Assembly: GCA_964035545.1 (NCBI GenBank)
Contig: OZ037772.1
Coordinates: 2,488,501 to 2,552,500 of the forward strand
Reading direction: 5' to 3'
Length of the DNA: 64,000 nucleotides
Origin: Bugula neritina
Lineage: Eukaryota > Bryozoa > Gymnolaemata > Cheilostomatida > Bugulidae
The notes beneath the pieces were generated by a model. It made no database searches. It was not told where the DNA came from and saw nothing but the letters and a program-made list of their open reading frames with translations. The translations under genes and the position numbers were made by a program. The stretch's first letter is position 1. Every line of letters starts with the position of its first letter. Positions 232 to 49,932 of the stretch are shown here, one piece after another.

Positions 232-487
232 GTCAAAGCTATGCCTATATCATCTTATCAAGGAAACAGACACTTGAAGGATGAAATATACTAAAATATA
301 TTCAACATAACAGTGAGAATATAAACTCCTGCACTATCCACTTCTGTCTCACACAAACCTTAATGCTGACAAACTTACTTCCTCTTTTACTGTTACATAA
401 CTCACTTTAATAATAAAATAATAAATAACAGGTTCTTGTAATATTTCTCAGTTTCTTTCTACAGAAATAGAAACAGCAAGTAAATAC

Positions 488-23370: not shown

Positions 23371-24033
23371 ACTCATGTCGATAATTCATTTAGTTTACCT
23401 TACTATTTTAGTTTCAATAAATACAATTATATTAATTATATTTATAATAATATTAACTATAATATTTAATTCTATACCATGATTTGATAATTATTATTGT
23501 AATCTAAAAATCAAATATGCCTATTAATATTAATTTCATAGTTATGATAATAAAAGTGTGAAATTAAATCATTTTTAATGTTCATTCAATGGTTTAAGTT
23601 TTTATCATTAAAAACAAATGGTTAATTATCGTAATTGATAAGTTAAAGTTGAGATAATCATAATGGTAGACATAATGATAATCGTGAATAGTATAATTAT
23701 CACCTAAAGTAAAAGGTAAACCGTTATCATGTTCATAATGACTACATAAAGTTGAATGTTGTTATGATGGTAAGTTATACTTGTATAATTAAATAAAAGT
23801 AATATTATTTAATTTTACATTTCAAGCTGCAATTACAAAGTTTGACCTTTGATGGTGAAAAGCAATCATCACCATCATCATGCTGATCACTTGCAATCTA
23901 TTCATATTACTAATTAATCATTAAGCATAACCGTCGGTCATCAGACTGAGTCATTTATGGTTGACCTTGTGATTAACATTGGCATTTCGATTTTAGCAGA
24001 ATCTTTCAAATGACAATATGATTATTATCATGT

Positions 24034-24720
24034 TGTTATATTGAGTACTGGGGGTTTTCAACTACTAAGTACCTAATATAACACAGGGTATGCATACAAT
24101 TAGAATATTCTACATGTGTATAACTATAACGCGTTGATAGTTGGTATCACACTTACCGGTATTATTCTTCTCTTTAGTCACATCTGCTTACGACGGACTC
24201 TAGTGTACAAGAGATCTGGAATCCTGTACCAAAGCTGCCACGTTTAGACAGAAGGTTCTCTCATTGCTTACTTCTTGTAGCCAGAGCTCCGTCACTCAAC
24301 ATAAAAGGTAAGGGTACGAAAGTGATAAGTATCTTATAGCTAAAGAGCAAAGTGCTATAATCCTTAGGCTAGAAGTCCTGTTGCGAAACATCATATATGT
24401 GGAAGTATACTTTTAGGGCTAATGTTGTACCATCTCCAATAATTAGTTGTATGTCCTGTATCATGGTGTATAACCTTGTAAGTGTGTGTCTATTTAATGT
24501 TACTGCTATTCTATATAGTAGGCATGCACTATGTATGGAAGAAAAGATATATTATAAATGGGGAAAAGATAAAATACATGGAAGTATTCAATACAAAACA
24601 ATATTAAGCTCTAACTAAGGTTGCAGGGAAGCAGGATGCTATATCTGTAGTATATTATATTGTAGTGGTATAGCATACGAAATGTCAAGTATGAAATAAT
24701 ACTTGAATACATCTATAGCA
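24034..24720 (-). repeat. LTR 1 (3' LTR of left copy)
   Basis: 687 bp, starting TGTTATATTGAGTACT and ending CATCTATAGCA on the plus strand. Contains an antisense 73-codon frame (24,397-24,618) present in all three LTRs, probably spurious. Confidence 0.93.
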
Positions 24721-24730
24721 TCCTCCCCAA
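24721..24730 (-). promoter_or_regulatory. Polypurine tract of left copy
   Basis: On the minus strand TTGGGGAGGA lies immediately upstream of the 3' LTR, the position and composition of a plus-strand primer. An identical tract is at 31,775-31,784. Confidence 0.75.
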
Positions 24731-25444
24731 TTTAGAGAAAGACACCTCCGGTGGCTTATGCTTGTTGAAAGCATAAACAATTAAGCATTACTACTCTGAA
24801 ATAAAAAAAAGGAAGAAAAACCTTTCACAATAGAATGAGTAAAATTTGAAAATTATGTATACTAGCTGTTGTATATATGTATTCTATTAGTACTAGTGAG
24901 TTTATCGATTAGAGTGAGTATTATTTTTTTTTTTGTTCTGGTCACATATTTTTTTTTTCTCACTCATTTCTTACATTGTTCCCTTTTTTTTTGTAACCAT
25001 ATTTTCATTATTTTTTTTTTTTTTTTTTTGATGAACTATATCTGTTGATAAAATAAAAAAAACAAGACTTTAGCTATAAGTAAACATTTACTAAAAATAC
25101 ACTAATTATGAATATTATAAACATAAGTCACAGGAGGTGGTGATAACAATTGACTCCGCATTTTATCCAACTTTGAATATTAAAAAATTCCGCTTGATTT
25201 GATTCAATTTTCCCAATACAGAGCTTACTTAATTTTATTTTAATCAAAAGTCAATTTGATTTCTGCAATTTTTAGTAAGTTTGTTTTATAAGAAGCCAAA
25301 ACTGTAGGAGATGTTAACCTGTAATGCTGAAAAAAATGTTAAAGTACTCCCCCCTGTGAACAACAGGAAAACTCCCGTGTTCCGTTGAAAAACTTGATTA
25401 TTAGTATGGCAGTAAATATTAGTATATCTGGTATATCTGCATGA
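24731..25444 (-). other. Non-coding 3' part of the retroelement
   Basis: Between the protease stop and the polypurine tract. Long poly-T runs at 24,926-25,030 (poly-A on the element strand). Too short for, and without motifs of, reverse transcriptase or integrase. Confidence 0.6.
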
Positions 25445-25951
25445 TTATGTAAAGTAATGAATCGGGTGAGAATATGATGGTATGGCTGCATTCACAGTTC
25501 TTATTTCAAAAGTAGTTAGTGCGTTGGTTTCTCCCATGGGTAGAGTTTCGCCAGAGAAACGAAACTCTCCTTTTGCAAAATTGTAGGTGACATCACCCAG
25601 TTTGCTAAGAAAATCAGTTCCAAGCAGTACCTCATGGCCAATATCATCAGCTACATGAAAACACTGCTTAAACACTTTCGATCCAATTGTAATTTCAGCG
25701 GCCGTGCGTCCTATTATATGAAGTTTAGAGCTGTTAACCCCTTTTGCAGTCAAGGTACCTGAATATAACGGTAGACTCAATCTTTTAGCAATGTCAGAGC
25801 GCATCAATGTCACCGTAGCCCCGGCATCAGCTAATGCTTGATACGGTTTTCCTGCTATTTTGACATCAATTAACGCACTCCTATATTGACTACCATTTAT
25901 TCCTGCTACTATTTCAATGCGGCTACTAGTACTGGGTGTGTCGGCTTCTAG
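25445..25951 (-). CDS. Retropepsin-like aspartic protease, readthrough extension (left copy)
   Basis: This frame continues the Gag-Env frame directly after its UGA stop and stays open for 168 codons to a TAA. About 41 codons in is the active-site motif DAGAT (usual form DTGA or DSGA), and later LLGTDFL, the second conserved strand (hydrophobic-hydrophobic-Gly) of retropepsins. The size fits a single-lobe, dimeric retroviral-type protease that would process the element's polyprotein. It has no good start codon of its own before the active site, so expression by stop readthrough is the simplest route. No RT follows. The Ala in place of Thr/Ser after the catalytic Asp is unusual but known in some families. 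Confidence 0.8.
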   Translation of the reverse strand, partial: LEADTPSTSSRIEIVAGINGSQYRSALIDVKIAGKPYQALADAGATVTLMRSDIAKRLSLPLYSGTLTAKGVNSSKLHIIGRTAAEITIGSKVFKQCFHVADDIGHEVLLGTDFLSKLGDVTYNFAKGEFRFSGETLPMGETNALTTFEIRTVNAAIPSYSHPIHYFT

Positions 25952-25957
25952 TCATTG
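25946..25957 (-). promoter_or_regulatory. UGA stop with CUAG readthrough context
   Basis: The Gag-Env frame ends CAA UGA CUAG at 25,948-25,957. UGA followed by CUAG is the established high-efficiency readthrough context in animal and viral genes. The protease lies in the same frame beyond it. The identical site is at 33,000-33,011. Confidence 0.7.
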
Positions 25958-28900
25958 CAGTTTCGGATAGAGGGGGCGGCGATATTGCTGAATTGAAGAT
26001 GCAGGCGAAGGAGCACTAGGGGTTGGTCTAGTGTCCACCTCTACCATATCTACGAATTCTGTGAAGCTAGTCTGATCGGAAGCGTCCAGGAACCCATCCT
26101 GTTCTCCTGCCTCAACATCATTGTCAGATGTGTTCTCTGTGTCCTCAATGTCGATAGCTGCTACAATATTTCTCCTTCGCTGGCAACAACGATTATATAG
26201 GAAAATACCTAGCAATGCAATTGACAATATGGTGACTAAACAGTTGGATATCAAAGTCCACAATTCGAATGCACTCGCCACATGCCCTCCAAACAGGAAA
26301 GCAAACCAAGAGTTCCCTATCAAGTTTTCTTTCGACTCAATGACATTGTTTTTAAAGGAAACATGTCTGTTGGATTGAATTCCCATTGCTTCTAAAACTT
26401 GTTTCTGTCTTGACAAAGTAGCTAGCAATTCATTCAAGTCAGAGTGTGCTGACAGGTCAGGCCAACTTAAGTGATGGGCACGGCTGTAGATTGTTTCATG
26501 GATTTTAAGAGGGTGTGCACCTAGGGAAATTCCAGGTAAACTCAGGTCTTCTCCAAGATTAACCTTTTCTACGGTACCATCTTGGTTATACCAAAACAAT
26601 TCATCGTTCATCCGGAATGCAATTGCTGATTTGGATGTGCACGGTGCTTGTGCACTTTGTGTGTGAATAATGTTATCCATCGGATCCATGAAACCAGTGT
26701 GCGTTTCCCCACTGAGTTCCAATTCTACTGGAATAAACATGGTGCAATTATTCTCTGGCATAGGGAGCATTTTGTAGCTTTTTATTTCTGTACATGGGTA
26801 AATCTTTAGAAAACCAGGACCAGACTCAGCTCGGATATTGCTTACCCCTAGTAAGTATCTGGCTGTACTCGTCGCATGTTGCTCTGCGAGTAGAGCTACG
26901 GTTTTGAGGACTTGAACTATGTTTTTACAGGTATATTGATAAGATGTCCAATACAGTTTCGATTCGATTCCGAGAATCTGTACTTCTAGGGACTGAGCTA
27001 TAGCGTCCATGACAGCATATGCTGGACTCAAACGACTCCTGCGGTCCCATTCTAATCCAGGAGCCTTTTCAACGTGTTGCGTTAGAGTAGTGTTGAACAG
27101 GTCTGAAGTATTAAAAACGACAAGCAAACCTTGGTCCGACATTGTGCCTGACTTGCCGTCACAAGTGGTGATATTCCCAAAGGGGTTCTTGCGGAAAGTT
27201 AAAGCCAAGTCTTCTTGATCACTAACAAAATAGCCATCAAGGAAACTTCCTTCAACTTCATACCACTCCTCGTATGGACAATTAGCTTCTCGTTCTGTTT
27301 CCCATATCAGCATAGATTGATCTCTGAGTTTGCAGTAGCCATCAGAGTATGAGTTGCAATGGGAAACGTCACCTGCGGTGCTTTCAAAAGAACTTTTCCC
27401 AAATGTCTTGTATACCGAAGCTGAAATATAACTGCATTGTTTCACTTCAAAGTCATGCCACTTGCAGCACCAAACATAAGCTAATCCTGCAGCTTTGTTT
27501 TTTGTAGTGTATGCACCATCACTTCCAGATAGGGCACCTTCATTGCATCTCTTCTCTAGTACCATATTTTCGCATTCGCTGCGGCTAACTGGCAGTGACC
27601 GGTGAGATTCCTTCTTAGTTTTCACGTCCGTAAAAAGTGATATCTGTGTGGAGATGGTGTACAGCATTTTCGTGCATTGATAGGCTGCTGTACGCCATTC
27701 CACTACATTTTTTCTGTAAACCGTAGCCTTCACAGGGGTTGGCGCATGAGTACTATTGGGTCTTGGAGTCGGATCACATTGGAAGTCATGATTCAATTGA
27801 TGAATAGATGGTCGCCTCACTTCACTGGAACTACACACCAAAGGATACCTGGCATACTGCGGCTGTGCCTTCTGTGTAGTGTTAAAAACAGTCGTGTTAG
27901 ACAATGCATTCACTACTGCTGTCAACACTAACACAGATAGTATGCTGGTGAGAGTCTGACTGGCCAAAGCTGGCCCCAGGAGAGCTGTGCCTTTTACTGG
28001 TGCAGTGGCTGCGGCTACACTGATCAGCATACACATTGCCACTAGTGCCAACATGTAGGTTTGCATTGTTGACAAACCAGTCCCCCGTCCTCTACTTCTT
28101 TTCCTTTTGGGTCTCCTGTCAGAGATGAATTCATTTGGAGAGGTTTGAATTGAATTCACTGATTCCTCAGCTATCTCATCTTGAGGAGGCTGAGTCAGAA
28201 GGGCCTCGGCAAATTCATCATCCTCTAGGCTCTCAATAGCATTGATGTGTCGCGTCCCACTGTAATCTTTGGTTTTGCTCTGTTGACCAGAGCACTGATT
28301 ACGTTGTGGTTGCTGGTGAGAGGGTGGTTGAGGTGGGCAGGAAGGAAGTTGTGCTGGTGGATGAGGGTACCGGGGAGAAGATTGGTAGTAAGGTTGAGGC
28401 TTCCCCTGGTTGAAGTATCTACCTCGTCCTCTTCCTCGGTTTGTTGTTCCTCTCCATCCACCACCTCTACCTCTGTCATTTCTCATTCCAAACCCTTGAC
28501 TCTGTTGTTGGTGTTGTTGGTATTGGGGCTGCCGTTGCTCTTTAGCTTGGTTGTGCACTAAAGTTTTCAACCATTCTACCTCTTTTTCTAGCTTTTGAAC
28601 TGAGTCAGATGAGTTTACCGTTGCCACTATTCTCTGGGTGTCATCTCCCATCTGATGTTCTACATTTTCTTGCTTAAGTGCAAGTTTCCTAGCACTTTCT
28701 ACAGTTGTGGGGTTTTTAGAGAGGAGGTGCCTCTTCAATCCTGGCCGTAGACCAGTAATAAAAGCAGATACTAGCACGCTATCTTTATGTTCAAGGGAGA
28801 GGTCAGGCCATTGGGTGTTGGCAGCTTCCATAAATTCGCCATAATATTCTAGTACGCTTTTCTTCCCCATCTTTATGTTCCACACTAATTTGCTTGAGTC

Positions 28901-29968
28901 GACAAACTCTTTGCATAACCTCTCTCGAAGACTCTTGTAACTAATCGCTAGCGTGGGCTCCTTTGCAACTACTGCCTTGAAAACCTGATAGGCACCACCT
29001 TCCAGGGCATCTGGAAGGCTTTGTGCCATCTGATAATCACTAAGCTGCAGTTTTTTTATGTTCTTTTCCCATTTTTCAAGAAATAACTCCCAGCTGGAAC
29101 CAGGAGTTCCTTTAAATTTGGTGTTCTGTGGAGGCTCTCTCAGAATAATAGGTGAGTTGTGAAATTTTCCCGCATCAGCTACTCCAATGCTGTGTTCAGA
29201 TGGTGTTTCAGCTAAGCTTTGGATTGGTGAGTTATGAGGTTTTGGTGATCGTTGATTAGCAATGTGGGGATAACTTGATGTGAATTCCAAGGTAGTATTT
29301 GTAGGTGTAGGTGCTGGTTGTTCATGAAGTTGTCTTCTACTTGTTTTCCGTGACGTAACTGGTGGAGGTAGGCGAGTTCGAGGTGGCGGAGTTGGTTCCG
29401 GCATGACATTTGCATCATTGGTAGATCTTTGACCCAAGGTGAGATTCCGAAAATCTTCAAGTTGTTGTTGTAACTTTTGTTGCTGGATTGTGAGCCGATG
29501 CTCTCTTTCCAGAAACTCATTTTGCTGTTGTTCTTGAACAGCACTCTGTTCCTCATAGAACTTTCTCCGTTGGATTTCAAAACTTTCCTCCATCTCGTAC
29601 CGTCTCCTTGCTTGCTCTTGTCTTTCTACCTCGAGGCGCTGAAACTGTTCCGCCAGTTCATGCTCCTTCGTTTGTTGATACTGTCGCCATTGTTCTTGCT
29701 CATATCTCCATACATCCTTTTGCTTTTCCTGCTCCTCTACAAGTTTCTTGTATTCTAACTCGTAGAACCTTGCAATTTCATGCGGGTTCATTGGGAGTCG
29801 TCTTTCGGACAACTCAACCAATGCGTGAGCTCCTTCTCTTATCGAGTCTTGTGAGAGAGTAGGAGTGTCTAAGCCCGTGGCTACATTTGTGGCACTACCT
29901 GGTGTCGCAATAGTACCAACACTAGTGGTGACTGTAGTTGTGGCGGTGGTCACGATTCCGGTACTCAT
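25952..29968 (-). CDS. Gag-Env fusion polyprotein (left copy)
   Basis: 1,338 codons, uninterrupted. Residues about 60-175: Gln/Glu-rich coiled coil. About 185-290: Pro-rich linker. About 290-440: retrotransposon capsid-like region (SWELFLEKWEKN ... RERLCKEF ... GLRPGLKRHL). About 490-540: RGG/RGR-rich nucleic-acid-binding tail in place of a CCHC knuckle. About 618-628: RRPKRKRSRGR, basic, NLS- or furin-like. From Met635: hydrophobic signal segment, then an ectodomain with many Cys and seven or so N-glycosylation sequons, a membrane anchor near 1,229-1,260, and an approximately 77-residue tail with PSAP (1,317-1,320) and LYPKL (1,333-1,337). Role by analogy: particle assembly plus envelope glycoprotein. 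Env normally follows pol on a spliced mRNA; fusion to Gag is atypical. The Env family is not assigned with confidence. Confidence 0.85.
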   Translation of the reverse strand: MSTGIVTTATTTVTTSVGTIATPGSATNVATGLDTPTLSQDSIREGAHALVELSERRLPMNPHEIARFYELEYKKLVEEQEKQKDVWRYEQEQWRQYQQTKEHELAEQFQRLEVERQEQARRRYEMEESFEIQRRKFYEEQSAVQEQQQNEFLEREHRLTIQQQKLQQQLEDFRNLTLGQRSTNDANVMPEPTPPPRTRLPPPVTSRKTSRRQLHEQPAPTPTNTTLEFTSSYPHIANQRSPKPHNSPIQSLAETPSEHSIGVADAGKFHNSPIILREPPQNTKFKGTPGSSWELFLEKWEKNIKKLQLSDYQMAQSLPDALEGGAYQVFKAVVAKEPTLAISYKSLRERLCKEFVDSSKLVWNIKMGKKSVLEYYGEFMEAANTQWPDLSLEHKDSVLVSAFITGLRPGLKRHLLSKNPTTVESARKLALKQENVEHQMGDDTQRIVATVNSSDSVQKLEKEVEWLKTLVHNQAKEQRQPQYQQHQQQSQGFGMRNDRGRGGGWRGTTNRGRGRGRYFNQGKPQPYYQSSPRYPHPPAQLPSCPPQPPSHQQPQRNQCSGQQSKTKDYSGTRHINAIESLEDDEFAEALLTQPPQDEIAEESVNSIQTSPNEFISDRRPKRKRSRGRGTGLSTMQTYMLALVAMCMLISVAAATAPVKGTALLGPALASQTLTSILSVLVLTAVVNALSNTTVFNTTQKAQPQYARYPLVCSSSEVRRPSIHQLNHDFQCDPTPRPNSTHAPTPVKATVYRKNVVEWRTAAYQCTKMLYTISTQISLFTDVKTKKESHRSLPVSRSECENMVLEKRCNEGALSGSDGAYTTKNKAAGLAYVWCCKWHDFEVKQCSYISASVYKTFGKSSFESTAGDVSHCNSYSDGYCKLRDQSMLIWETEREANCPYEEWYEVEGSFLDGYFVSDQEDLALTFRKNPFGNITTCDGKSGTMSDQGLLVVFNTSDLFNTTLTQHVEKAPGLEWDRRSRLSPAYAVMDAIAQSLEVQILGIESKLYWTSYQYTCKNIVQVLKTVALLAEQHATSTARYLLGVSNIRAESGPGFLKIYPCTEIKSYKMLPMPENNCTMFIPVELELSGETHTGFMDPMDNIIHTQSAQAPCTSKSAIAFRMNDELFWYNQDGTVEKVNLGEDLSLPGISLGAHPLKIHETIYSRAHHLSWPDLSAHSDLNELLATLSRQKQVLEAMGIQSNRHVSFKNNVIESKENLIGNSWFAFLFGGHVASAFELWTLISNCLVTILSIALLGIFLYNRCCQRRRNIVAAIDIEDTENTSDNDVEAGEQDGFLDASDQTSFTEFVDMVEVDTRPTPSAPSPASSIQQYRRPLYPKLQ

Positions 29969-31087
29969 ATTGTTGGTGCGTGACTTATAATTCCCAACTA
30001 ATAAGTGAGTTCAGCAGTACTTGTTTGCAATGTTATTAATGTTTATACTTTGTGCTAATGTACAATTATGTGTCTATTTCTTACTCAAGGATATGTGTGC
30101 ATGTACTATCCTGTATATATGACAAGGTGTGGCTTGCAGCTAAGTACTTTAAGTTAGTGGAAATCTCTTATTATGACCTCTGTACACTACAAATTATTCA
30201 GTTATTTCTGCTATTCAAGCCTAGTCTAAAATCTAAATTTAGTCAACCACAGTAATTAATTAGTTTGATATTCGTACTATGTAGTAAGGCGGTTGTTGTA
30301 CTTAGGTACTATAATACGTAATAGGACAATGCTTTGTACTATAATACACTGACTGCACTGCAGGTGTTGCAATACTTAGTACTGCAATGTAATATTCGTA
30401 TAATGTGTAAATATATAATATACAATTCAGTGATGCTCTGATTGGCAATGCACTGCAAAGTAAATTGTAGATAATTATAAGAAATTATGTTTAGGACAAG
30501 ACTATTAATTATAGTACTTGTCAGCGCCTATACCTCAGCAGACAGTCGTAGACTGAATCTGTTTGGAATTTATTAACTGCTAAATAAGGAGTGTGTTAAC
30601 CTTATCTGCAGCTCACCCAATTATACAACTAAATTAGCCTATTAGCAAAGGGAGGTAATTCACTTCTACAATTAATTATCTCTAGGCTAAAAAAATTAAA
30701 ACGGGCTTGTTTTCACCTTTTAAGCAGCAGAGAAAAATTAAACATATAGGAATTCTCACTCTATTACTATTAGTCTATGGATGTATATTGTTTTGGGGTA
30801 ATATGTAAAAGTTGATCCTTTTTGGCTTCAATTAATATTTTCTCAGTGCGGCCTAGCACTTCTACGGTCTACCCACGAGCAAAATATGAGCTCAGCGAAT
30901 ATAAAACCTACAGGAAAACATTAGTGAACAGCCAAATGAGGCCTGATCAACACTATTTAAAGTATTAATATAATTTTATCCCCTGGCGCACGGGGTGGTT
31001 AACCAAGTGTCAAGAGCTATTAATATAAAGCTGGACACAATATTTAACAAGGGCAACCTTGGGCAAAAGCCAGTGCCTCCTCCAAAA
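29969..31087 (-). other. Leader between 5' LTR and Gag (left copy), with candidate primer-binding site
   Basis: 1,119 nt without a supported ORF. On the minus strand, three bases after the 5' LTR, TGGAGGAGGCACTGGC begins with the TGG expected of a tRNA primer-binding site; the tRNA was not identified. The same leader is at 37,023-38,141. Confidence 0.45.
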
Positions 31088-31774
31088 TGTTATATTGAGT
31101 ACTGGGGGTTTTCAACTACTAAGTACCTAATATAACACAGGGTATGCATACAATTAGAATATTCTACATGTGTATAACTATAACGCGTTGATAGTTGGTA
31201 TCACACTTACCGGTATTATTCTTCTCTTTAGTCACATCTGCTTACGACGGACTCTAGTGTACAAGAGATCTGGAATCCTGTACCAAAGCTGCCACGTTTA
31301 GACAGAAGGTTCTCTCATTGCTTACTTCTTGTAGCCAGAGCTCCGTCACTCAACATAAAAGGTAAGGGTACGAAAGTGATAAGTATCTTATAGCTAAAGA
31401 GCAAAGTGCTATAATCCTTAGGCTAGAAGTCCTGTTGCGAAACATCATATATGTGGAAGTATACTTTTAGGGCTAATGTTGTACCATCTCCAATAATTAG
31501 TTGTATGTCCTGTATCATGGTGTATAACCTTGTAAGTGTGTGTCTATTTAATGTTACTGCTATTCTATATAGTAGGCATGCACTATGTATGGAAGAAAAG
31601 ATATATTATAAATGGGGAAAAGATAAAATACATGGAAGTATTCAATACAAAACAATATTAAGCTCTAACTAAGGTTGCAGGGAAGCAGGATGCTATATCT
31701 GTAGTATATTATATTGTAGTGGTATAGCATACGAAATGTCAAGTATGAAATAATACTTGAATACATCTATAGCA
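31088..31774 (-). repeat. LTR 2 (shared middle LTR)
   Basis: Identical to LTR 1. It serves as 5' LTR of the left copy and 3' LTR of the right copy. Confidence 0.93.
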
Positions 31775-32498
31775 TCCTCCCCAATTTAGAGAAAGACACC
31801 TCCGGTGGCTTATGCTTGTTGAAAGCATAAACAATTAAGCATTACTACTCTGAAATAAAAAAAAGGAAGAAAAACCTTTCACAATAGAATGAGTAAAATT
31901 TGAAAATTATGTATACTAGCTGTTGTATATATGTATTCTATTAGTACTAGTGAGTTTATCGATTAGAGTGAGTATTATTTTTTTTTTTGTTCTGGTCACA
32001 TATTTTTTTTTTCTCACTCATTTCTTACATTGTTCCCTTTTTTTTTGTAACCATATTTTCATTATTTTTTTTTTTTTTTTTTTGATGAACTATATCTGTT
32101 GATAAAATAAAAAAAACAAGACTTTAGCTATAAGTAAACATTTACTAAAAATACACTAATTATGAATATTATAAACATAAGTCACAGGAGGTGGTGATAA
32201 CAATTGACTCCGCATTTTATCCAACTTTGAATATTAAAAAATTCCGCTTGATTTGATTCAATTTTCCCAATACAGAGCTTACTTAATTTTATTTTAATCA
32301 AAAGTCAATTTGATTTCTGCAATTTTTAGTAAGTTTGTTTTATAAGAAGCCAAAACTGTAGGAGATGTTAACCTGTAATGCTGAAAAAAATGTTAAAGTA
32401 CTCCCCCCTGTGAACAACAGGAAAACTCCCGTGTTCCGTTGAAAAACTTGATTATTAGTATGGCAGTAAATATTAGTATATCTGGTATATCTGCATGA

Positions 32499-33005
32499 TT
32501 ATGTAAAGTAATGAATCGGGTGAGAATATGATGGTATGGCTGCATTCACAGTTCTTATTTCAAAAGTAGTTAGTGCGTTGGTTTCTCCCATGGGTAGAGT
32601 TTCGCCAGAGAAACGAAACTCTCCTTTTGCAAAATTGTAGGTGACATCACCCAGTTTGCTAAGAAAATCAGTTCCAAGCAGTACCTCATGGCCAATATCA
32701 TCAGCTACATGAAAACACTGCTTAAACACTTTCGATCCAATTGTAATTTCAGCGGCCGTGCGTCCTATTATATGAAGTTTAGAGCTGTTAACCCCTTTTG
32801 CAGTCAAGGTACCTGAATATAACGGTAGACTCAATCTTTTAGCAATGTCAGAGCGCATCAATGTCACCGTAGCCCCGGCATCAGCTAATGCTTGATACGG
32901 TTTTCCTGCTATTTTGACATCAATTAACGCACTCCTATATTGACTACCATTTATTCCTGCTACTATTTCAATGCGGCTACTAGTACTGGGTGTGTCGGCT
33001 TCTAG
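32499..33005 (-). CDS. Retropepsin-like aspartic protease, readthrough extension (right copy)
   Basis: Identical to 25,445-25,951, shifted by 7,054 bp: same frame as the upstream Gag-Env, DAGAT active site, LLGTDFL strand, TAA stop. Shares the in-frame UGA-CUAG junction at 33,000-33,008. Confidence 0.8.
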   Translation of the reverse strand, partial: LEADTPSTSSRIEIVAGINGSQYRSALIDVKIAGKPYQALADAGATVTLMRSDIAKRLSLPLYSGTLTAKGVNSSKLHIIGRTAAEITIGSKVFKQCFHVADDIGHEVLLGTDFLSKLGDVTYNFAKGEFRFSGETLPMGETNALTTFEIRTVNAAIPSYSHPIHYFT

Positions 33006-36000
33006 TCATTGCAGTTTCGGATAGAGGGGGCGGCGATATTGCTGAATTGAAGATGCAGGCGAAGGAGCACTAGGGGTTGGTCTAGTGTCCACCTCTACCA
33101 TATCTACGAATTCTGTGAAGCTAGTCTGATCGGAAGCGTCCAGGAACCCATCCTGTTCTCCTGCCTCAACATCATTGTCAGATGTGTTCTCTGTGTCCTC
33201 AATGTCGATAGCTGCTACAATATTTCTCCTTCGCTGGCAACAACGATTATATAGGAAAATACCTAGCAATGCAATTGACAATATGGTGACTAAACAGTTG
33301 GATATCAAAGTCCACAATTCGAATGCACTCGCCACATGCCCTCCAAACAGGAAAGCAAACCAAGAGTTCCCTATCAAGTTTTCTTTCGACTCAATGACAT
33401 TGTTTTTAAAGGAAACATGTCTGTTGGATTGAATTCCCATTGCTTCTAAAACTTGTTTCTGTCTTGACAAAGTAGCTAGCAATTCATTCAAGTCAGAGTG
33501 TGCTGACAGGTCAGGCCAACTTAAGTGATGGGCACGGCTGTAGATTGTTTCATGGATTTTAAGAGGGTGTGCACCTAGGGAAATTCCAGGTAAACTCAGG
33601 TCTTCTCCAAGATTAACCTTTTCTACGGTACCATCTTGGTTATACCAAAACAATTCATCGTTCATCCGGAATGCAATTGCTGATTTGGATGTGCACGGTG
33701 CTTGTGCACTTTGTGTGTGAATAATGTTATCCATCGGATCCATGAAACCAGTGTGCGTTTCCCCACTGAGTTCCAATTCTACTGGAATAAACATGGTGCA
33801 ATTATTCTCTGGCATAGGGAGCATTTTGTAGCTTTTTATTTCTGTACATGGGTAAATCTTTAGAAAACCAGGACCAGACTCAGCTCGGATATTGCTTACC
33901 CCTAGTAAGTATCTGGCTGTACTCGTCGCATGTTGCTCTGCGAGTAGAGCTACGGTTTTGAGGACTTGAACTATGTTTTTACAGGTATATTGATAAGATG
34001 TCCAATACAGTTTCGATTCGATTCCGAGAATCTGTACTTCTAGGGACTGAGCTATAGCGTCCATGACAGCATATGCTGGACTCAAACGACTCCTGCGGTC
34101 CCATTCTAATCCAGGAGCCTTTTCAACGTGTTGCGTTAGAGTAGTGTTGAACAGGTCTGAAGTATTAAAAACGACAAGCAAACCTTGGTCCGACATTGTG
34201 CCTGACTTGCCGTCACAAGTGGTGATATTCCCAAAGGGGTTCTTGCGGAAAGTTAAAGCCAAGTCTTCTTGATCACTAACAAAATAGCCATCAAGGAAAC
34301 TTCCTTCAACTTCATACCACTCCTCGTATGGACAATTAGCTTCTCGTTCTGTTTCCCATATCAGCATAGATTGATCTCTGAGTTTGCAGTAGCCATCAGA
34401 GTATGAGTTGCAATGGGAAACGTCACCTGCGGTGCTTTCAAAAGAACTTTTCCCAAATGTCTTGTATACCGAAGCTGAAATATAACTGCATTGTTTCACT
34501 TCAAAGTCATGCCACTTGCAGCACCAAACATAAGCTAATCCTGCAGCTTTGTTTTTTGTAGTGTATGCACCATCACTTCCAGATAGGGCACCTTCATTGC
34601 ATCTCTTCTCTAGTACCATATTTTCGCATTCGCTGCGGCTAACTGGCAGTGACCGGTGAGATTCCTTCTTAGTTTTCACGTCCGTAAAAAGTGATATCTG
34701 TGTGGAGATGGTGTACAGCATTTTCGTGCATTGATAGGCTGCTGTACGCCATTCCACTACATTTTTTCTGTAAACCGTAGCCTTCACAGGGGTTGGCGCA
34801 TGAGTACTATTGGGTCTTGGAGTCGGATCACATTGGAAGTCATGATTCAATTGATGAATAGATGGTCGCCTCACTTCACTGGAACTACACACCAAAGGAT
34901 ACCTGGCATACTGCGGCTGTGCCTTCTGTGTAGTGTTAAAAACAGTCGTGTTAGACAATGCATTCACTACTGCTGTCAACACTAACACAGATAGTATGCT
35001 GGTGAGAGTCTGACTGGCCAAAGCTGGCCCCAGGAGAGCTGTGCCTTTTACTGGTGCAGTGGCTGCGGCTACACTGATCAGCATACACATTGCCACTAGT
35101 GCCAACATGTAGGTTTGCATTGTTGACAAACCAGTCCCCCGTCCTCTACTTCTTTTCCTTTTGGGTCTCCTGTCAGAGATGAATTCATTTGGAGAGGTTT
35201 GAATTGAATTCACTGATTCCTCAGCTATCTCATCTTGAGGAGGCTGAGTCAGAAGGGCCTCGGCAAATTCATCATCCTCTAGGCTCTCAATAGCATTGAT
35301 GTGTCGCGTCCCACTGTAATCTTTGGTTTTGCTCTGTTGACCAGAGCACTGATTACGTTGTGGTTGCTGGTGAGAGGGTGGTTGAGGTGGGCAGGAAGGA
35401 AGTTGTGCTGGTGGATGAGGGTACCGGGGAGAAGATTGGTAGTAAGGTTGAGGCTTCCCCTGGTTGAAGTATCTACCTCGTCCTCTTCCTCGGTTTGTTG
35501 TTCCTCTCCATCCACCACCTCTACCTCTGTCATTTCTCATTCCAAACCCTTGACTCTGTTGTTGGTGTTGTTGGTATTGGGGCTGCCGTTGCTCTTTAGC
35601 TTGGTTGTGCACTAAAGTTTTCAACCATTCTACCTCTTTTTCTAGCTTTTGAACTGAGTCAGATGAGTTTACCGTTGCCACTATTCTCTGGGTGTCATCT
35701 CCCATCTGATGTTCTACATTTTCTTGCTTAAGTGCAAGTTTCCTAGCACTTTCTACAGTTGTGGGGTTTTTAGAGAGGAGGTGCCTCTTCAATCCTGGCC
35801 GTAGACCAGTAATAAAAGCAGATACTAGCACGCTATCTTTATGTTCAAGGGAGAGGTCAGGCCATTGGGTGTTGGCAGCTTCCATAAATTCGCCATAATA
35901 TTCTAGTACGCTTTTCTTCCCCATCTTTATGTTCCACACTAATTTGCTTGAGTCGACAAACTCTTTGCATAACCTCTCTCGAAGACTCTTGTAACTAATC

Positions 36001-37022
36001 GCTAGCGTGGGCTCCTTTGCAACTACTGCCTTGAAAACCTGATAGGCACCACCTTCCAGGGCATCTGGAAGGCTTTGTGCCATCTGATAATCACTAAGCT
36101 GCAGTTTTTTTATGTTCTTTTCCCATTTTTCAAGAAATAACTCCCAGCTGGAACCAGGAGTTCCTTTAAATTTGGTGTTCTGTGGAGGCTCTCTCAGAAT
36201 AATAGGTGAGTTGTGAAATTTTCCCGCATCAGCTACTCCAATGCTGTGTTCAGATGGTGTTTCAGCTAAGCTTTGGATTGGTGAGTTATGAGGTTTTGGT
36301 GATCGTTGATTAGCAATGTGGGGATAACTTGATGTGAATTCCAAGGTAGTATTTGTAGGTGTAGGTGCTGGTTGTTCATGAAGTTGTCTTCTACTTGTTT
36401 TCCGTGACGTAACTGGTGGAGGTAGGCGAGTTCGAGGTGGCGGAGTTGGTTCCGGCATGACATTTGCATCATTGGTAGATCTTTGACCCAAGGTGAGATT
36501 CCGAAAATCTTCAAGTTGTTGTTGTAACTTTTGTTGCTGGATTGTGAGCCGATGCTCTCTTTCCAGAAACTCATTTTGCTGTTGTTCTTGAACAGCACTC
36601 TGTTCCTCATAGAACTTTCTCCGTTGGATTTCAAAACTTTCCTCCATCTCGTACCGTCTCCTTGCTTGCTCTTGTCTTTCTACCTCGAGGCGCTGAAACT
36701 GTTCCGCCAGTTCATGCTCCTTCGTTTGTTGATACTGTCGCCATTGTTCTTGCTCATATCTCCATACATCCTTTTGCTTTTCCTGCTCCTCTACAAGTTT
36801 CTTGTATTCTAACTCGTAGAACCTTGCAATTTCATGCGGGTTCATTGGGAGTCGTCTTTCGGACAACTCAACCAATGCGTGAGCTCCTTCTCTTATCGAG
36901 TCTTGTGAGAGAGTAGGAGTGTCTAAGCCCGTGGCTACATTTGTGGCACTACCTGGTGTCGCAATAGTACCAACACTAGTGGTGACTGTAGTTGTGGCGG
37001 TGGTCACGATTCCGGTACTCAT
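33006..37022 (-). CDS. Gag-Env fusion polyprotein (right copy)
   Basis: Identical in predicted protein to 25,952-29,968. Conservation of a 1,338-codon frame in both copies shows only that the duplication is recent; it is not independent evidence of selection. Confidence 0.85.
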   Translation of the reverse strand: MSTGIVTTATTTVTTSVGTIATPGSATNVATGLDTPTLSQDSIREGAHALVELSERRLPMNPHEIARFYELEYKKLVEEQEKQKDVWRYEQEQWRQYQQTKEHELAEQFQRLEVERQEQARRRYEMEESFEIQRRKFYEEQSAVQEQQQNEFLEREHRLTIQQQKLQQQLEDFRNLTLGQRSTNDANVMPEPTPPPRTRLPPPVTSRKTSRRQLHEQPAPTPTNTTLEFTSSYPHIANQRSPKPHNSPIQSLAETPSEHSIGVADAGKFHNSPIILREPPQNTKFKGTPGSSWELFLEKWEKNIKKLQLSDYQMAQSLPDALEGGAYQVFKAVVAKEPTLAISYKSLRERLCKEFVDSSKLVWNIKMGKKSVLEYYGEFMEAANTQWPDLSLEHKDSVLVSAFITGLRPGLKRHLLSKNPTTVESARKLALKQENVEHQMGDDTQRIVATVNSSDSVQKLEKEVEWLKTLVHNQAKEQRQPQYQQHQQQSQGFGMRNDRGRGGGWRGTTNRGRGRGRYFNQGKPQPYYQSSPRYPHPPAQLPSCPPQPPSHQQPQRNQCSGQQSKTKDYSGTRHINAIESLEDDEFAEALLTQPPQDEIAEESVNSIQTSPNEFISDRRPKRKRSRGRGTGLSTMQTYMLALVAMCMLISVAAATAPVKGTALLGPALASQTLTSILSVLVLTAVVNALSNTTVFNTTQKAQPQYARYPLVCSSSEVRRPSIHQLNHDFQCDPTPRPNSTHAPTPVKATVYRKNVVEWRTAAYQCTKMLYTISTQISLFTDVKTKKESHRSLPVSRSECENMVLEKRCNEGALSGSDGAYTTKNKAAGLAYVWCCKWHDFEVKQCSYISASVYKTFGKSSFESTAGDVSHCNSYSDGYCKLRDQSMLIWETEREANCPYEEWYEVEGSFLDGYFVSDQEDLALTFRKNPFGNITTCDGKSGTMSDQGLLVVFNTSDLFNTTLTQHVEKAPGLEWDRRSRLSPAYAVMDAIAQSLEVQILGIESKLYWTSYQYTCKNIVQVLKTVALLAEQHATSTARYLLGVSNIRAESGPGFLKIYPCTEIKSYKMLPMPENNCTMFIPVELELSGETHTGFMDPMDNIIHTQSAQAPCTSKSAIAFRMNDELFWYNQDGTVEKVNLGEDLSLPGISLGAHPLKIHETIYSRAHHLSWPDLSAHSDLNELLATLSRQKQVLEAMGIQSNRHVSFKNNVIESKENLIGNSWFAFLFGGHVASAFELWTLISNCLVTILSIALLGIFLYNRCCQRRRNIVAAIDIEDTENTSDNDVEAGEQDGFLDASDQTSFTEFVDMVEVDTRPTPSAPSPASSIQQYRRPLYPKLQ

Positions 37023-38141
37023 ATTGTTGGTGCGTGACTTATAATTCCCAACTAATAAGTGAGTTCAGCAGTACTTGTTTGCAATGTTATTAATGTTTAT
37101 ACTTTGTGCTAATGTACAATTATGTGTCTATTTCTTACTCAAGGATATGTGTGCATGTACTATCCTGTATATATGACAAGGTGTGGCTTGCAGCTAAGTA
37201 CTTTAAGTTAGTGGAAATCTCTTATTATGACCTCTGTACACTACAAATTATTCAGTTATTTCTGCTATTCAAGCCTAGTCTAAAATCTAAATTTAGTCAA
37301 CCACAGTAATTAATTAGTTTGATATTCGTACTATGTAGTAAGGCGGTTGTTGTACTTAGGTACTATAATACGTAATAGGACAATGCTTTGTACTATAATA
37401 CACTGACTGCACTGCAGGTGTTGCAATACTTAGTACTGCAATGTAATATTCGTATAATGTGTAAATATATAATATACAATTCAGTGATGCTCTGATTGGC
37501 AATGCACTGCAAAGTAAATTGTAGATAATTATAAGAAATTATGTTTAGGACAAGACTATTAATTATAGTACTTGTCAGCGCCTATACCTCAGCAGACAGT
37601 CGTAGACTGAATCTGTTTGGAATTTATTAACTGCTAAATAAGGAGTGTGTTAACCTTATCTGCAGCTCACCCAATTATACAACTAAATTAGCCTATTAGC
37701 AAAGGGAGGTAATTCACTTCTACAATTAATTATCTCTAGGCTAAAAAAATTAAAACGGGCTTGTTTTCACCTTTTAAGCAGCAGAGAAAAATTAAACATA
37801 TAGGAATTCTCACTCTATTACTATTAGTCTATGGATGTATATTGTTTTGGGGTAATATGTAAAAGTTGATCCTTTTTGGCTTCAATTAATATTTTCTCAG
37901 TGCGGCCTAGCACTTCTACGGTCTACCCACGAGCAAAATATGAGCTCAGCGAATATAAAACCTACAGGAAAACATTAGTGAACAGCCAAATGAGGCCTGA
38001 TCAACACTATTTAAAGTATTAATATAATTTTATCCCCTGGCGCACGGGGTGGTTAACCAAGTGTCAAGAGCTATTAATATAAAGCTGGACACAATATTTA
38101 ACAAGGGCAACCTTGGGCAAAAGCCAGTGCCTCCTCCAAAA

Positions 38142-38828
38142 TGTTATATTGAGTACTGGGGGTTTTCAACTACTAAGTACCTAATATAACACAGGGTATG
38201 CATACAATTAGAATATTCTACATGTGTATAACTATAACGCGTTGATAGTTGGTATCACACTTACCGGTATTATTCTTCTCTTTAGTCACATCTGCTTACG
38301 ACGGACTCTAGTGTACAAGAGATCTGGAATCCTGTACCAAAGCTGCCACGTTTAGACAGAAGGTTCTCTCATTGCTTACTTCTTGTAGCCAGAGCTCCGT
38401 CACTCAACATAAAAGGTAAGGGTACGAAAGTGATAAGTATCTTATAGCTAAAGAGCAAAGTGCTATAATCCTTAGGCTAGAAGTCCTGTTGCGAAACATC
38501 ATATATGTGGAAGTATACTTTTAGGGCTAATGTTGTACCATCTCCAATAATTAGTTGTATGTCCTGTATCATGGTGTATAACCTTGTAAGTGTGTGTCTA
38601 TTTAATGTTACTGCTATTCTATATAGTAGGCATGCACTATGTATGGAAGAAAAGATATATTATAAATGGGGAAAAGATAAAATACATGGAAGTATTCAAT
38701 ACAAAACAATATTAAGCTCTAACTAAGGTTGCAGGGAAGCAGGATGCTATATCTGTAGTATATTATATTGTAGTGGTATAGCATACGAAATGTCAAGTAT
38801 GAAATAATACTTGAATACATCTATAGCA
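38142..38828 (-). repeat. LTR 3 (5' LTR of right copy)
   Basis: Identical to LTRs 1 and 2. Followed at 38,829 by the ATGT target duplication. Its outer end lies 314 bp upstream of the ValRS start codon. Confidence 0.93.
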
Positions 38829-39889
38829 ATGTGATAGTCGCAAAGTTGAAATGCAGTATCGTTTGTCTGAAAATTTCGTGATTTTTCATTAGAATCAGAG
38901 ATGAGATGTCTGTTCGTGAAAAGTCACAGTCTTTCATTTTTGAACTGTGTGGTTTATAGGAGTTTTATCACTGAACTCCCACGCATAACTAAGGCAATAC
39001 TGAGCCATTAGTTTATATTATTAGTATTAATATATCTGTCTATAACTATACTGGGTCAGTAGTTTGTATGTTTAGTATTGAGATATCTATTAGTTCCATG
39101 CCGGCTGATTGTGTTTTAAGGGAAGTCTCACAATAAACGAACATGTCGGAAGTGAACTCTGGTGATGCGCCAACTGGCGAGGTCAAGGTGAAATCTGAGA
39201 AAGAGTTGAAAAAAGAAGCTGCTAAAGCTGCTAAACTAGCCAAGTTTCAAGCTAAACAGGCTAAACAGAAGGCAGAGTCTGCCACGACTACTGAGGTGTC
39301 TGTTTAGTTAGTTACAGGTTCTATATATACTAAGGTAGGTGCAGTAATGGAGAAATTGAGAAAGCCTGTGTTCTAGATTAGAAATGTAGCATAAGAAGTT
39401 GTGTTTTTGTAAGGATTTCAACCCGAACTCCAAACCAAAATTTGATAATAAGATTAAAGAACCTAGGCTATCTCGATTTCTACACTACTGCTCCTAAATG
39501 TTTATATTTTTGTTACTTTCTATCCATATTTATGGTTGTACTTCTACATGAAAGTGTTACTTGAATTACATATTCGTATTGGGACTGTATGGCTGTACTT
39601 TTACCTGGAAGTTGTCTGTATCTGTAGCTAACAATTTCCATTTTATTTTCTTCAAATTTGATTTTTTTTTCTAGAAAAAAGTGAAAGAGAAAAAGGAGAA
39701 GGCTGTAGTAACGTATGTCGATGACACACCAGTTGGCCATAAGAAAGGTTCAGTTCAATTATTCTCTACATTTTATACTCAATTGAGCTCTTCATTCCTT
39801 TACTTACAAGTTTCAGTTGAAGCACTGATTTATCAGTGTACACTGCTCGGTAGTGAACACACAGTTATGTGTGTAAGCAGTTTAAACTG

Positions 39890-40745: not shown

Positions 40746-43014
40746 CCTATACTTTATAGTTTTCTATTATTCTAGACACGACGTGTCCCATGCCTGGTTC
40801 TTACTCCCCGTCCTATGTGGAAGCTGCCTGGTACTCTTGGTGGGAGAAGGAAGGATTCTTCAAACCTGAGTATAATCTCAATGGTACACTTCTCATCCTA
40901 GTAAAGTCTATAATATGTGATTGGTTACTTCTAACACGTAGAGGTGTGATTTGTTACTCTGTTGTAACAGGTACTGTGATTGGTTGCTTTTTACTTTGTA
41001 ACCGAGAGAGATGTGATTGGTCGCTTTGTAACAGGTAGAGATGTGCTGAAACTCACACCTGAAGAGAAGTTTATCATCATGATCCCTCCCCCTAATGTGA
41101 CCGGGACTCTTCACCTAGGACAGGCCCTCACGGGGGCGGTTGAGGATGCGATAGTTCGGTGGTGAGATGTTCATTCATATAGATGAGACAACTCCGTACT
41201 TACCTAGTCACTAAACTGGTGGTGTATGTAGCTTATAGCATGTAACAGTAGACACCATTCCTCTGGTGGTGACTACATGACATTTTGGCATCTTGCCAAG
41301 TCACTTTGAGATGTTCCACAGACAGGCTATGAACATCCCCCTGTTAATTCTCTTTTGAATGCTGAGAAAATTTGTTTTAAGTACCGGTTGGCATAAGTCA
41401 TTCATCTATTATATTGATGTTGTTTCAACCACAGATATTTCTCTCAGCACCTTTCCAGAATATCTACAGGTGTCTGATATGCTTGTATTGTCAGGTGTCT
41501 GCAGGTGTCAGTTCTGTTGTATTGTCAGGCACCGGATGAATGGGAAGGTGACACTGTTTGTACCCGGATGTGACCACGCAGGAATAGCCACTCAAGTTGT
41601 CGTCGAGAAAAAACTCGCTAGAGAAGAGAATGAAACTCGACACGATTTGGGACGAGATGAGTTTGTGAGACGAGTGTGGGACTGGAAGAACCAGTAAGGG
41701 AATATTTTATCTTGAACATGCATTTCATAGCGACTTAGTATTCGGGTTTGAGTTTTTATTTTATCTTATTGGTGTTCAGTTGCTACAGTTTGATATAAGA
41801 TAATATAATAGCGTTAATATGATAAAATTCTTATATATACTTGAATATACAAAAAGTTAAATATAGGTTTACTTCATCACACTCTATCATTGGTCTCATT
41901 ATTTAAGTTGCTAATACAACTAAGTTTTGCAGCACAACGATTGGTCAGTGTTATTATATAATTTCTATGGAAAAGGAGACAGAATCTACCATCAGTTGAG
42001 GAAAGTGGGCGGGTCTTATGACTGGGACAGAACTACGTTCACTATGGATGAGGTGAGGAGTTATCCTCTCTATACATATATTATGTTTGAGTAGTGGAGT
42101 CTATATGCCGTGTCGACTGTTTACTGACTCAGTGTGTTATCTTCTCTATGATTGGTTAATCATGAGGCCTGGTCTCCAATCAGCTCACACTTGACACATG
42201 ACTCATATATACTTGTTTATTAGAAATCTTTAAAAGCGGTGAACGAAGCGTTTATCAGAATGCACGAGAAAGGTGTGATCTACAGAGCTAACCGTTTTGA
42301 CCACCGGTCCTGTACTCTCAACTCTGCCATCTCTGATATTGAGGTATATCGTACAGTATCAGTCTGACTCCCGGCTGTGTGTACGTCAACTGGTTATTCA
42401 CTGCGAGACTTGTGTGTTGGTGGTAACTAACCTAATAGTAGTATTCAGACACTACCTGATATATTACATTATGACTATCTTCGAATGAATACATCAATGA
42501 GACCACAGCCACATATTCATTCGTACGAGCATTCATATACATTATATGAACTAATAGAAAAGAATGAGAATGCAGTGACTCACAAGCACACACTACAGTT
42601 TAACCTTTGACCTGTATAGTCTGAGAGAGTTGTATCACTGATTGCAGGTAGACAAAGTAGAGTTGACAGGAAGGACTATGCTCTCTGTGCCGGGCTACAA
42701 GGAGAAGGTGGAGTTCGGAGTTCTCCTTTCCTTTGCATATAAAGTAGAAGATTCTGACGAAGAGATCATTGTGGCCACAACTAGATTAGAAACTATGTTG
42801 GGTTAGTAAACATCAATGTCACTAATAGCTTTGTTGCTTAGCAACGTAATAATAGCTGACTCTGGCTGCCAGTTGAAGTAACTCCAGTAGATCTCTCTAA
42901 CTATTCTTACTTTCTCACTTAGGAGCAGTAGTGGAGAACTTGAGATAGCCTAAGTTGTTTAATTTTATTATTCCATTTTGGTTTAAGGTGCGGGTTGAAG
43001 TTTTCAAAGTCCGC

Positions 43015-43519: not shown

Positions 43520-44692
43520 TCTGTTTCCTGTATATTCATAGCCTGTTGTCCTGTATATTCATAGCCTGTTGTCCTGTATATTCATAGCCTGTTGTCCTGT
43601 ATATTCATAGCCTGTTGTCCTATATATTCATAGCCTGTTGTCCTGTATATTCATAGCCTGTTGTCCTGTATATTCATAGCCTGTTGTCCTATATATTCAT
43701 AGCCTGTTGTCCTGTATATTCATAGCCTGTTGTCCTGTATATTCATAGCCTGTTGTCCTGTATATTCATAGCCTGTTGTCTTGTATATTCATAGCCTGTT
43801 GTCCTATATATTCATAGCCTGTTGTCCTGTATATTCATAGCCTGTTGTCCTGTATATTCAAAGCCTGTTGTCCTGTATATTCATAGCCTGTTGTCCTGTA
43901 TATTCATAGCCCGTTGTCCTGTATATTCATAGCCCGTTGTCCTGTATATTCATAGCCTGTTGTCCTGTATATTCATAGCCTGTTTTCCTGTATATTCATA
44001 GCCTGTTGTCCTGTATATTCATAGCCTGTTGTCCTGTATATTTATAGCCCGTTGTCCTGTATATTCATAGCCTGTTGTCCTGTATATTCATAGCCTGTTG
44101 TCCCGTATATTCATAGCCTGTTTTCCTGTATATTCATAGCCTGTTGTCCTGTATATTCATAGCCTGTTGTCCTGTATATTTATAGCCCGTTGTCCTGTAT
44201 ATTCATAGTGCGTTGTCCTGTATATTCATAGCCTGTTGTCCTGTATATTCATAGCCCGTTGTCCTGTATGTTCGTAGCCTGTTGTCCTGTATATTCGTAG
44301 CCTGTTACCCTATATATTCGTAGTCTGTTGTCCTGTATATTCATAGCCTGTTGTCCTGTATATTTATAGCCCGTTGTCCTGTATATTCATAGCCTGTTGT
44401 CCTGTATATTCATAGTGCGTTGTCCTGTATATTCATAGCCTGTTGTCCTGTATATTCATAGCCCGTTGTCCTGTATATTCATAGCCTGTTGTCCTGTATA
44501 TTCGTAGCCTGTTGTCCTGTATATTCGTAGTCTGTTGTCCTGTATATTCATAGCCTGTTGTCCTGTATATTCATAGCCTGTTGTCCTGTATATTCATAGC
44601 CTGTTGTCCTGTATATTCATAGCCTGTTGTCCTGTATATTCATAGCCTGTTGTCCTGTATATTCATAGCCTGTTGTCCTGTATATTCATATT
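43520..44692. repeat. 23-bp minisatellite, about 51 units, in ValRS
   Basis: Units with core TATATTCATAGCCTGTTGTC run for 1.17 kb with few variants, starting about five bases after the donor of the exon ending at 43,515. The exon expected next is missing, so array growth or recombination may have accompanied its loss. Confidence 0.95.
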
Positions 44693-46079: not shown

Positions 46080-46825
46080 TTGTGTATAGTATATAATATA
46101 TTAGTACTGTATAGTATATATATTAGTACTGTATAGTATATAATATTTTAGTACTGTGTATAGTATATATATTAGTACTGTATAGTATATATGTTAGTAC
46201 TGTATAGTATATATATTCGGACTGTATAGTATATCTATAGCATAGTATATCTATAGCATAGTATATCTATAGCATAGTATATCTATAGCATAGTATATCT
46301 ATAGCATAGTATATCTATAGCATAGTATATCTATAGAATAGTATACCTATAGTATAGTATACCTATAGTATAGTATACCTATAGTATAGTATACCTATAG
46401 TATAGTATATCTATAGTATAGTATACCTATAGCATAGTATACCTATAGCATAGTATATCTATAGCATAGTATATCTATAGCATAGTATATCTATAGCATA
46501 GTATATCTATAGCATAGTATATCTATAGAATAGTATACCTATAGTATAGTATACCTATAGTATAGTATACCTATAGTATAGTATACCTATAGTATAGCAT
46601 ATCTATAGTATAGTATATCTATAGCATAGTATATCTATAGCATAGTATATCTATAGCATAGTATATCTATAGCATAGTATATCTATAGCATAGTATATCT
46701 ATAGTATAGTATATCTATAGTATAGTATATCTATAGCATAGTATATCTATAGCATAGTATATCTATAGTATAGTATATCTATAGTATAGTATATCTATAG
46801 CATAGTATATCTATAGCATAGTATG
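46080..46825. repeat. 16-bp minisatellite filling a ValRS intron
   Basis: Units of AGTATATCTATAGCAT, with TACC and TATAG variants, fill nearly the whole intron between 46,063 and 46,836. Confidence 0.93.
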
Positions 46826-48734: not shown

Positions 48735-48767
48735 GTCGTGGCAGCGGTGGGATAGTGTACATCAAAG

Positions 48768-49634: not shown

Positions 49635-49932
49635 AGGAGTATGGTGGAACACGCCGTCGTCTGTCCGTACGGACACGACGGAACATTCCACCCGAGTGGC
49701 AGGTACCACGCAGGACTAGTAGGCCCGCACAACGGCCCAGTACCTTCTCCCTGCCACTCGCTAACCGGTTTCACCGGTTACCTCGGGAAGAGGAGCCCGC
49801 CACTGAAATGGAGCCAGAAGGCCCAGTGGAGAGCCCCAAACCCCGCCGGCACCAACCTCGCCGCCGGAAGCCCCGTAAACCACGGGTGAAACCTCCGCCG
49901 TCCTGTCAATCCAGGACAGCACATGCGGGGGG

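Follow-up and report, generated by a model that had tools for sequence, protein, structure and literature searches.

What kind of retroelement encodes a Gag, an envelope glycoprotein and a protease in that order, and no polymerase? The question is raised by positions 24034-38828 of a 64,000-nucleotide stretch of Bugula neritina DNA (the window, within which all coordinates are given). The minus strand of this region contains three identical 687-bp long terminal repeats (LTRs) and two identical internal regions, arranged with a period of 7,054 bp. The array is interpreted here, with a probability of roughly 0.6, as a pol-deleted, non-autonomous tandem copy from a Ty3/Gypsy-like family having the order Gag-Env-[UGA]-Pro-(RT-RH-IN), with the envelope protein (Env) situated inside the Gag polyprotein and the Env tail acting as the budding domain (Pro or PR, protease; RT, reverse transcriptase; RH, RNase H; IN, integrase). 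This interpretation is based on the anatomy of the array, the single reading frame, its recurrence in relatives, matches to known folds and profiles, sequence motifs and the kinship of the protease.

Each internal region carries a fused Gag-like and envelope-like frame followed by a retropepsin, as the original prediction had it, and Pfam profiles, fold matches and analysis of the frames bear this out. The features concerned are as follows.

33006-37022, minus strand: Gag-Env single frame of 1,338 amino acids, first copy (P0001)
25952-29968, minus strand: Gag-Env single frame, second copy, identical
35796-36062, minus strand: Gag capsid region, residues 321-409, which matches Retrotrans_gag and, by fold, the dArc1/Arc/PNMA2/Ty3 capsids
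33009-35120, minus strand: Env part, residues 635-1338, with a hydrophobic signal-like segment, a class III ectodomain, a transmembrane (TM) segment at about residues 1239-1257 and a cytoplasmic tail
33002-33008, minus strand: UGA-CUAG candidate readthrough site at the Gag-Env/Pro boundary; the same at 25948-25954
32499-33005, minus strand: retropepsin piece of 168 amino acids plus stop, active site DAGA, in the Gag-Env frame; copy at 25445-25951

The best fold matches of the Gag capsid are the capsids of dArc1, Arc, PNMA2 and Ty3, placing it among capsids of the Ty3/Arc type. The 1,338-residue frame scores 24.4 bits against the Retrotrans_gag profile, barely over the Pfam cut-off of 24.1. Residues 635-1338 had been taken for a membrane glycoprotein, and this assignment holds. 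The Env part alone scores 27.2 bits against Monjiviricetes_fusion (PF24664), barely above the cut-off of 27. Upon comparing its predicted, low-confidence model with the PDB by fold, all 50 matches listed were found to be herpesvirus gB (best E 6.5e-16). By this comparison the Env part has a gB/G-type fold and is a class III (Monjiviricetes-type) glycoprotein. A basic stretch (RRPKRKRSRGRG) precedes the internal signal segment of Env. A sequence search of the PDB with Env gave no match at E up to 1, and the PHROGs search gave none. A chuvirus was considered as the specific Env donor and set aside, because the fold search gave no preference over other negative-strand viruses.

Judging from protein sequences, the fused frame is no local accident, since it recurs in relatives. 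Two of these, P0002 (1,374 amino acids, 46%) and P0003 (1,370 amino acids, 44%), were found when the whole frame was searched against 5.8 billion proteins. Four more came from a protein search that used the Env alignment and scored just the 7,994 candidates with the most words in common. P0005 (1,173 amino acids) contains a Gag with a CCHC zinc knuckle and Env, P0004 (740 amino acids) contains the tail of Gag and Env, and P0006 and P0007 are fragments that start inside Env and are uninformative on the fusion. The Gag capsid and Env are found in one frame in four of the seven family proteins (P0001, P0002, P0003 and P0005), and all five proteins that extend upstream of Env stay in frame into Gag. 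In the six pairs formed by the four full proteins, capsid identity is 30-56% and Env identity 39-52%, with a correlation of r = 0.87, the pairs being non-independent as they come from four proteins. This covariation fits inheritance of capsid and Env as one unit.

PF24664 reaches its cut-off in four of the seven proteins (P0002, P0004, P0007 and, with the Env part alone, P0001), and the precomputed label of P0003 does carry it. The CCHC knuckle is recognized by pattern in P0002, P0003 and P0005 and exceeds the Pfam cut-off in P0005 alone. None of the four matches that the Env search gave among the candidates scored has the name of an exogenous viral glycoprotein, and scans of viral contigs found no relative. 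A scan of genome contigs gave a single weak match (29%), between Gag residues 328-386 and a Candidatus Scalindua metagenome-assembled genome (L001), which was left unused.

The relatives bear on two other explanations. The array might be an ordinary broken element, whose Gag, captured glycoprotein and remnant of a protease were brought together by recombination and do not function as a unit. The window copy has lost the zinc knuckle and lacks pol, as such an origin would allow. However, the fusion is intact in relatives only 40-53% identical in Env, and the tail motifs are kept, so that this explanation is very improbable. Alternatively, Env might be made from a spliced subgenomic RNA in the manner of retroviruses, the open Gag-Env frame being incidental or a mere linker. 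A consensus splice donor, CCG/GTAAGT, in the LTR allows a spliced Env message, moderate acceptor-like AGs (71-76% pyrimidine) are situated about 110-290 nt upstream of Met635, and in the four full proteins, as in P0004, the hydrophobic segment begins with a Met or close to one. Env produced by splicing only would need no open frame, yet the frame is open in every one of the five proteins reaching Gag. Moreover, there is no strong polypyrimidine tract or acceptor immediately ahead of Env. Of the alternatives considered this route is the strongest, but we consider it doubtful.

Two further features of the Gag-Env junction were observed. At the position of the CCHC knuckle P0001 is degenerate (about residues 553-575), and an Arg-Gly-rich stretch persists upstream. 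Directly upstream of Env there is a linker motif, approximately E/D-D-E/D-F-A-x-x-L-x-S/T-Q-P-P (about residues 577-600 of P0001), which is kept in four of the five proteins reaching the linker, P0003 having its first half only. It may be a cleavage site, a binding site or, at the DNA level, a splice acceptor.

The cytoplasmic tail of Env ends in short motifs of the kind found in late domains.

33063-33074, minus strand: late-domain-like PSAP, residues 1317-1320
33012-33026, minus strand: late-domain-like LYPKL, residues 1333-1337, one residue before the stop

The motif [LIV]YPxL is present in all six complete tails, 1-22 residues from the C-terminal end, whereas PS/TAP occurs in four and PPxY in three of the six. 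A C-terminal Gln is found in five. P0007, the frame of which departs before the TM segment, was left out of these counts. We take the YPxL, PS/TAP and PPxY motifs to be late domains of the ALIX, Tsg101 and Nedd4 types, respectively. In retroviruses, such domains belong to Gag and are often C-terminal. The location of the motifs at the C-terminus of Gag-Env suggests either an insertion of Env ahead of a p6-like Gag terminus or a transfer of that role to the Env tail.

The retropepsin scores 51.5 bits against the gag-asp_proteas profile (cut-off 28.2). It shares the reading frame of Gag-Env, and only a UGA, followed by CUAG, intervenes, a point absent from the original prediction. CTAG follows 14 of the 2,546 TGA on both strands of the window, and two of these 14 are the site in question in its two copies. 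UGA-CUAG is a motif common to four human genes in which readthrough is efficient (PMC4132726), and among viral readthrough contexts UGA-CUA belongs to type II, being listed for alphaviruses (PMC3542737). The motif and continuing in-frame coding are both present, and the UGA is a putative readthrough site.

The absence of RT and integrase from the internal region, asserted originally, was confirmed in two ways. Pfam scans found no RT, RNase H or integrase in the frame, in the protease or in the 10 longest of 17 non-coding stop-to-stop pieces (each of at least 35 amino acids, from two non-coding stretches of one copy). Upon searching the element by tblastn with three related pols, the protease was found and the remainder was at chance level (E 0.2 or more). 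A pol with the order PR-RT-RH-IN is not found in the element itself, where PR alone is present, and no pol trace above chance occurs in the 0.7 kb after the end of the protease.

31775-32498, minus strand: A/T-rich 3' region at the expected position of pol, in which no pol remnant was found

A protein search with the protease piece gave three matches, P0008-P0010, which are 1,242-1,281 amino acids long and all have RT, RNase H and integrase. They have the order PR-RT-RH-IN, and their protease parts are 49-58% identical to the window protease. The active site ALADAGA is visible in two of the three, the third beginning downstream of the site, so that DAGA looks typical of the family rather than a sign of decay. 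The nearest solved structure to P0009, the only one of the three searched, is Ty3 Gag-Pol (E 1.5e-100). The window frame tracks the related pols through the protease to IPSYS, where the PR-RT linker begins, and ends there.

The family might instead have always been pol-less, with Gag-Env-Pro elements as stable non-autonomous passengers and P0008-P0010 as ordinary Gag-Pol cousins supplying polymerase and integrase. Pro stands alone after Env, identically in both tandem copies, and no contig ties Gag-Env to pol, the relatives being known as proteins alone. A precedent for a pol-poor, env-bearing non-autonomous element is provided by TelKA2n (PMC5408684). However, a Pro with nothing behind it and an abrupt end at the PR-RT linker resembles a truncation. 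P0002, P0003 and P0005 are situated on contigs of up to 8.5, 11.3 and 8.3 kb, respectively, which would have room for pol. A family that never had pol is, in our judgement, unlikely.

The original prediction had left a choice between a passenger competent for particle formation and entry, relying on the polymerase of another element, and a deletion product of a family in which env precedes pol. The latter is better supported, because the fused frame recurs, the nearest proteases start PR-RT-RH-IN polyproteins and the window frame ends at the linker. As the relatives are known from protein sequences alone, we infer the order Env-then-pol for the autonomous element. A competent passenger is possible, and is weakened by the loss of the CCHC knuckle in the window copy.

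Several observations, in addition to the splice donor in the LTR, weigh against a pol-deleted copy with Env inside Gag. The capsid is matched only modestly by fold (the lowest Foldseek E is 0.017, and none reaches 0.001), and Retrotrans_gag is below its cut-off in P0002, P0003 and P0005. The window Gag (P0001) is without the CCHC zinc knuckle, which makes particle competence and RNA packaging doubtful for this copy. Against the whole protein PF24664 scores 24.2 bits, below the cut-off of 27. The same profile is below the cut-off in P0005 and is unreported by the Pfam scan in P0003 and P0006. The confidence of the Env model is low (pLDDT 52, pTM 0.40). Retropepsins usually carry Ser or Thr at the position where DAGA, though family-typical, has Ala. 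No 3' RNA structure was detected at the stop by a test of local pairing, as the 120 nt starting there fold no better than chance (z = +0.63, with 149 of 200 shuffled sequences equalling or exceeding their stability). P0008 starts inside the protease, and its profile match of 16.2 bits is below the cut-off of 28.2. Finally, P0008-P0010 are known from proteins alone and may belong to Env-less cousins.

If the array is a pol-deleted copy from a Gag-Env-Pro-Pol family, its products might be made and used as follows. We infer polyprotein processing, readthrough, budding, entry and mobilisation in trans, and a position of the related pols downstream of Gag-Env. A single message would be translated into the Gag-Env polyprotein. 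Gag would remain cytosolic while the internal signal segment directs the Env ectodomain to the lumen of the endoplasmic reticulum, the Env tail being back in the cytosol. This tail, with YPxL and often PS/TAP or PPxY, would act as a p6-like budding domain and recruit the budding machinery. A minority of ribosomes would read past UGA-CUAG to yield Gag-Env-Pro and, in autonomous kin, also Pol. Signal peptidase and the protease of the element would separate the capsid from the spike. Having no polymerase or integrase, the window copy would need the enzymes of a relative, acting in trans, to be copied.

The anatomy of the array agrees in most respects with what had been described. The TG...CA ends and the 4-bp target site duplication (ACAT) were both borne out, and a polypurine tract (PPT)-like run adjoins the 3' LTR. 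The paired LTRs, their TG...CA termini and the target site duplication identify an LTR retroelement. The coordinates had been given correctly, but for a single element; the range holds a tandem of two identical copies with a common middle LTR.

38142-38828, minus strand: 5' LTR, 687 bp, TG...CA, with the consensus splice donor (GT at 38264)
31088-31774, minus strand: middle LTR, common to both tandem copies, 100% identical
24034-24720, minus strand: 3' LTR, 100% identical
38829-38832, no strand: target site duplication ACAT, 5' side
24030-24033, no strand: target site duplication ACAT, 3' side
38124-38138, minus strand: putative primer-binding site (PBS)-like run TGGAGGAGGCACTGG, starting 3 nt past the 5' LTR; repeated at 31070-31084
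31775-31787, minus strand: putative PPT-like run AAATTGGGGAGGA, immediately upstream of the 3' LTR; repeated at 24721-24733
37023-38141, minus strand: 5' leader, 1,119 nt, with three ATGs ahead of the Gag-Env start

No tRNA was matched to the PBS-like run TGGAGGAGGCACTGG, which is offset by 3 nt from the LTR. Upon comparing 24034-31774 with itself at a shift of 7,054 bp, zero mismatches were found between the two copies. The ACAT duplication is present at both outer flanks, and the array therefore resembles one insertion that was doubled later. The doubling looks like the product, most simply, of unequal LTR-LTR recombination, or of the assembler.

The remainder of the window contains other repeats and gene-like sequences. 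A separate GC-rich Ty3/Gypsy element is situated on the plus strand at 48756-53195, with RT, RNase H and integrase segments and, by eye, a Gag-like frame, spread across several frames. A repeat search of 39000-64000 found no LTR pair for it. With an identity to P0008-P0010 of about 30-43% only, its pol (50124-53195) was rejected as a partner of the array, to which nothing was found to link it. Near-identical frame fragments with RING/B-box-like cysteine patterns (by eye) are found, mainly on the minus strand, near the two ends of the window, at 462-5349 and 57034-60855, which suggests that a region with a TRIM-like gene was segmentally duplicated. There are minisatellites at 43521-44690 (a 23-bp unit in 51 copies, 94% matches) and 46226-46824 (a 16-bp unit in 37 copies, 96%). 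Exon-like stretches on the plus strand at 40760-41035 and 41359-41694 look, by a motif, like parts of a valyl-tRNA synthetase gene, and would point to a eukaryotic host, probably an animal. On the minus strand, 53880-54662 is a 260-residue stop-to-stop frame with repeats that look beta-propeller-like by eye, and its 214-residue open reading frame (ORF) has a weak MRJP match (E 0.049).

LTR retroelements that captured env genes are known, and it is the present gene order and expression logic that are apparently undescribed. No description of an LTR element with Env fused between Gag and Pro was found in the open-licence literature searched, subscription papers and Repbase being outside the scope. 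Errantiviruses such as gypsy (Metaviridae, with a baculovirus-type env) share the Ty3-type pol and an acquired fusion protein. Their env is the third ORF after pol, is of the class I F type and is expressed by splicing, whereas the window Env is class III and lies within the Gag frame. The Gag-stop-Pro-Pol arrangement of gammaretroviruses and the UGA readthrough of alphaviruses likewise have an in-frame downstream enzyme past a leaky stop. In gammaretroviruses the readthrough stop follows Gag alone. It is a UAG with a compact pseudoknot (PMC3542737). Unlike it, the window stop is a UGA after Gag-Env, and no structure was found in the 120 nt 3' of it. In foamy viruses Env is a separate gene and its leader is not Gag. 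The likeness lies in the long N-terminal leader subunit of foamy virus Env, the Gag interaction of which is discussed in budding (PMC7828637).

TelKA and TelKA2n of bdelloid rotifers have env genes that likewise come from negative-strand RNA viruses, and TelKA2n is non-autonomous with most of pol gone; the TelKA env is a class I paramyxovirus-type F in ORF3, downstream of pol (PMC5408684). Anakin, a mosquito BEL/Pao element with a chuvirus-like glycoprotein, is also an LTR element with a captured Monjiviricetes-type glycoprotein. Its backbone is GAG-PR-RT-RH-INT plus the glycoprotein, and other env-like genes of BEL elements (Roo, Tas, Cer-7) are downstream of the polyprotein (PMC7642597). Unlike in Anakin, the window Env is fused to Gag upstream of Pro, the element has no pol, and the related pols are Ty3-like. 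In a survey of Jingchuvirales glycoproteins, many of these adjoin Gypsy fragments, clear evidence that a Gypsy or Copia element captured one was not found, and two are within complete transposon boundaries, one in an unclassified element and one in Anakin (PMC10084718). Troyka was set aside, as it is described with CG...CG termini, 3-bp duplications and no envelope (PMC12440569).

In the env-bearing retroelements of the literature examined, env is a separate gene after pol (e.g. PMC7642597, PMC5408684), so that the supply of Env and Gag can be regulated apart. The family described here may represent an animal retroelement lineage, possibly infectious, with the order gag-env-pro-pol: Env would be internal to Gag (capsid-nucleocapsid-Env-late domain), capsid and spike would be made one to one, and pol would be reached by UGA readthrough after the Env tail. 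The chances for and against this are, in our view, evenly balanced. The style would be analogous to that of the structural polyproteins of alpha- and flaviviruses. If true, a class III glycoprotein of a negative-strand virus was captured by a Ty3/Gypsy-type element, and Env within Gag would be another route from retrotransposon to virus. It would also hint at a way of bringing the spike to where budding takes place that needs no packaging interaction of its own, and simple reporters could then test part of the question of how infectivity is acquired by retroelements.

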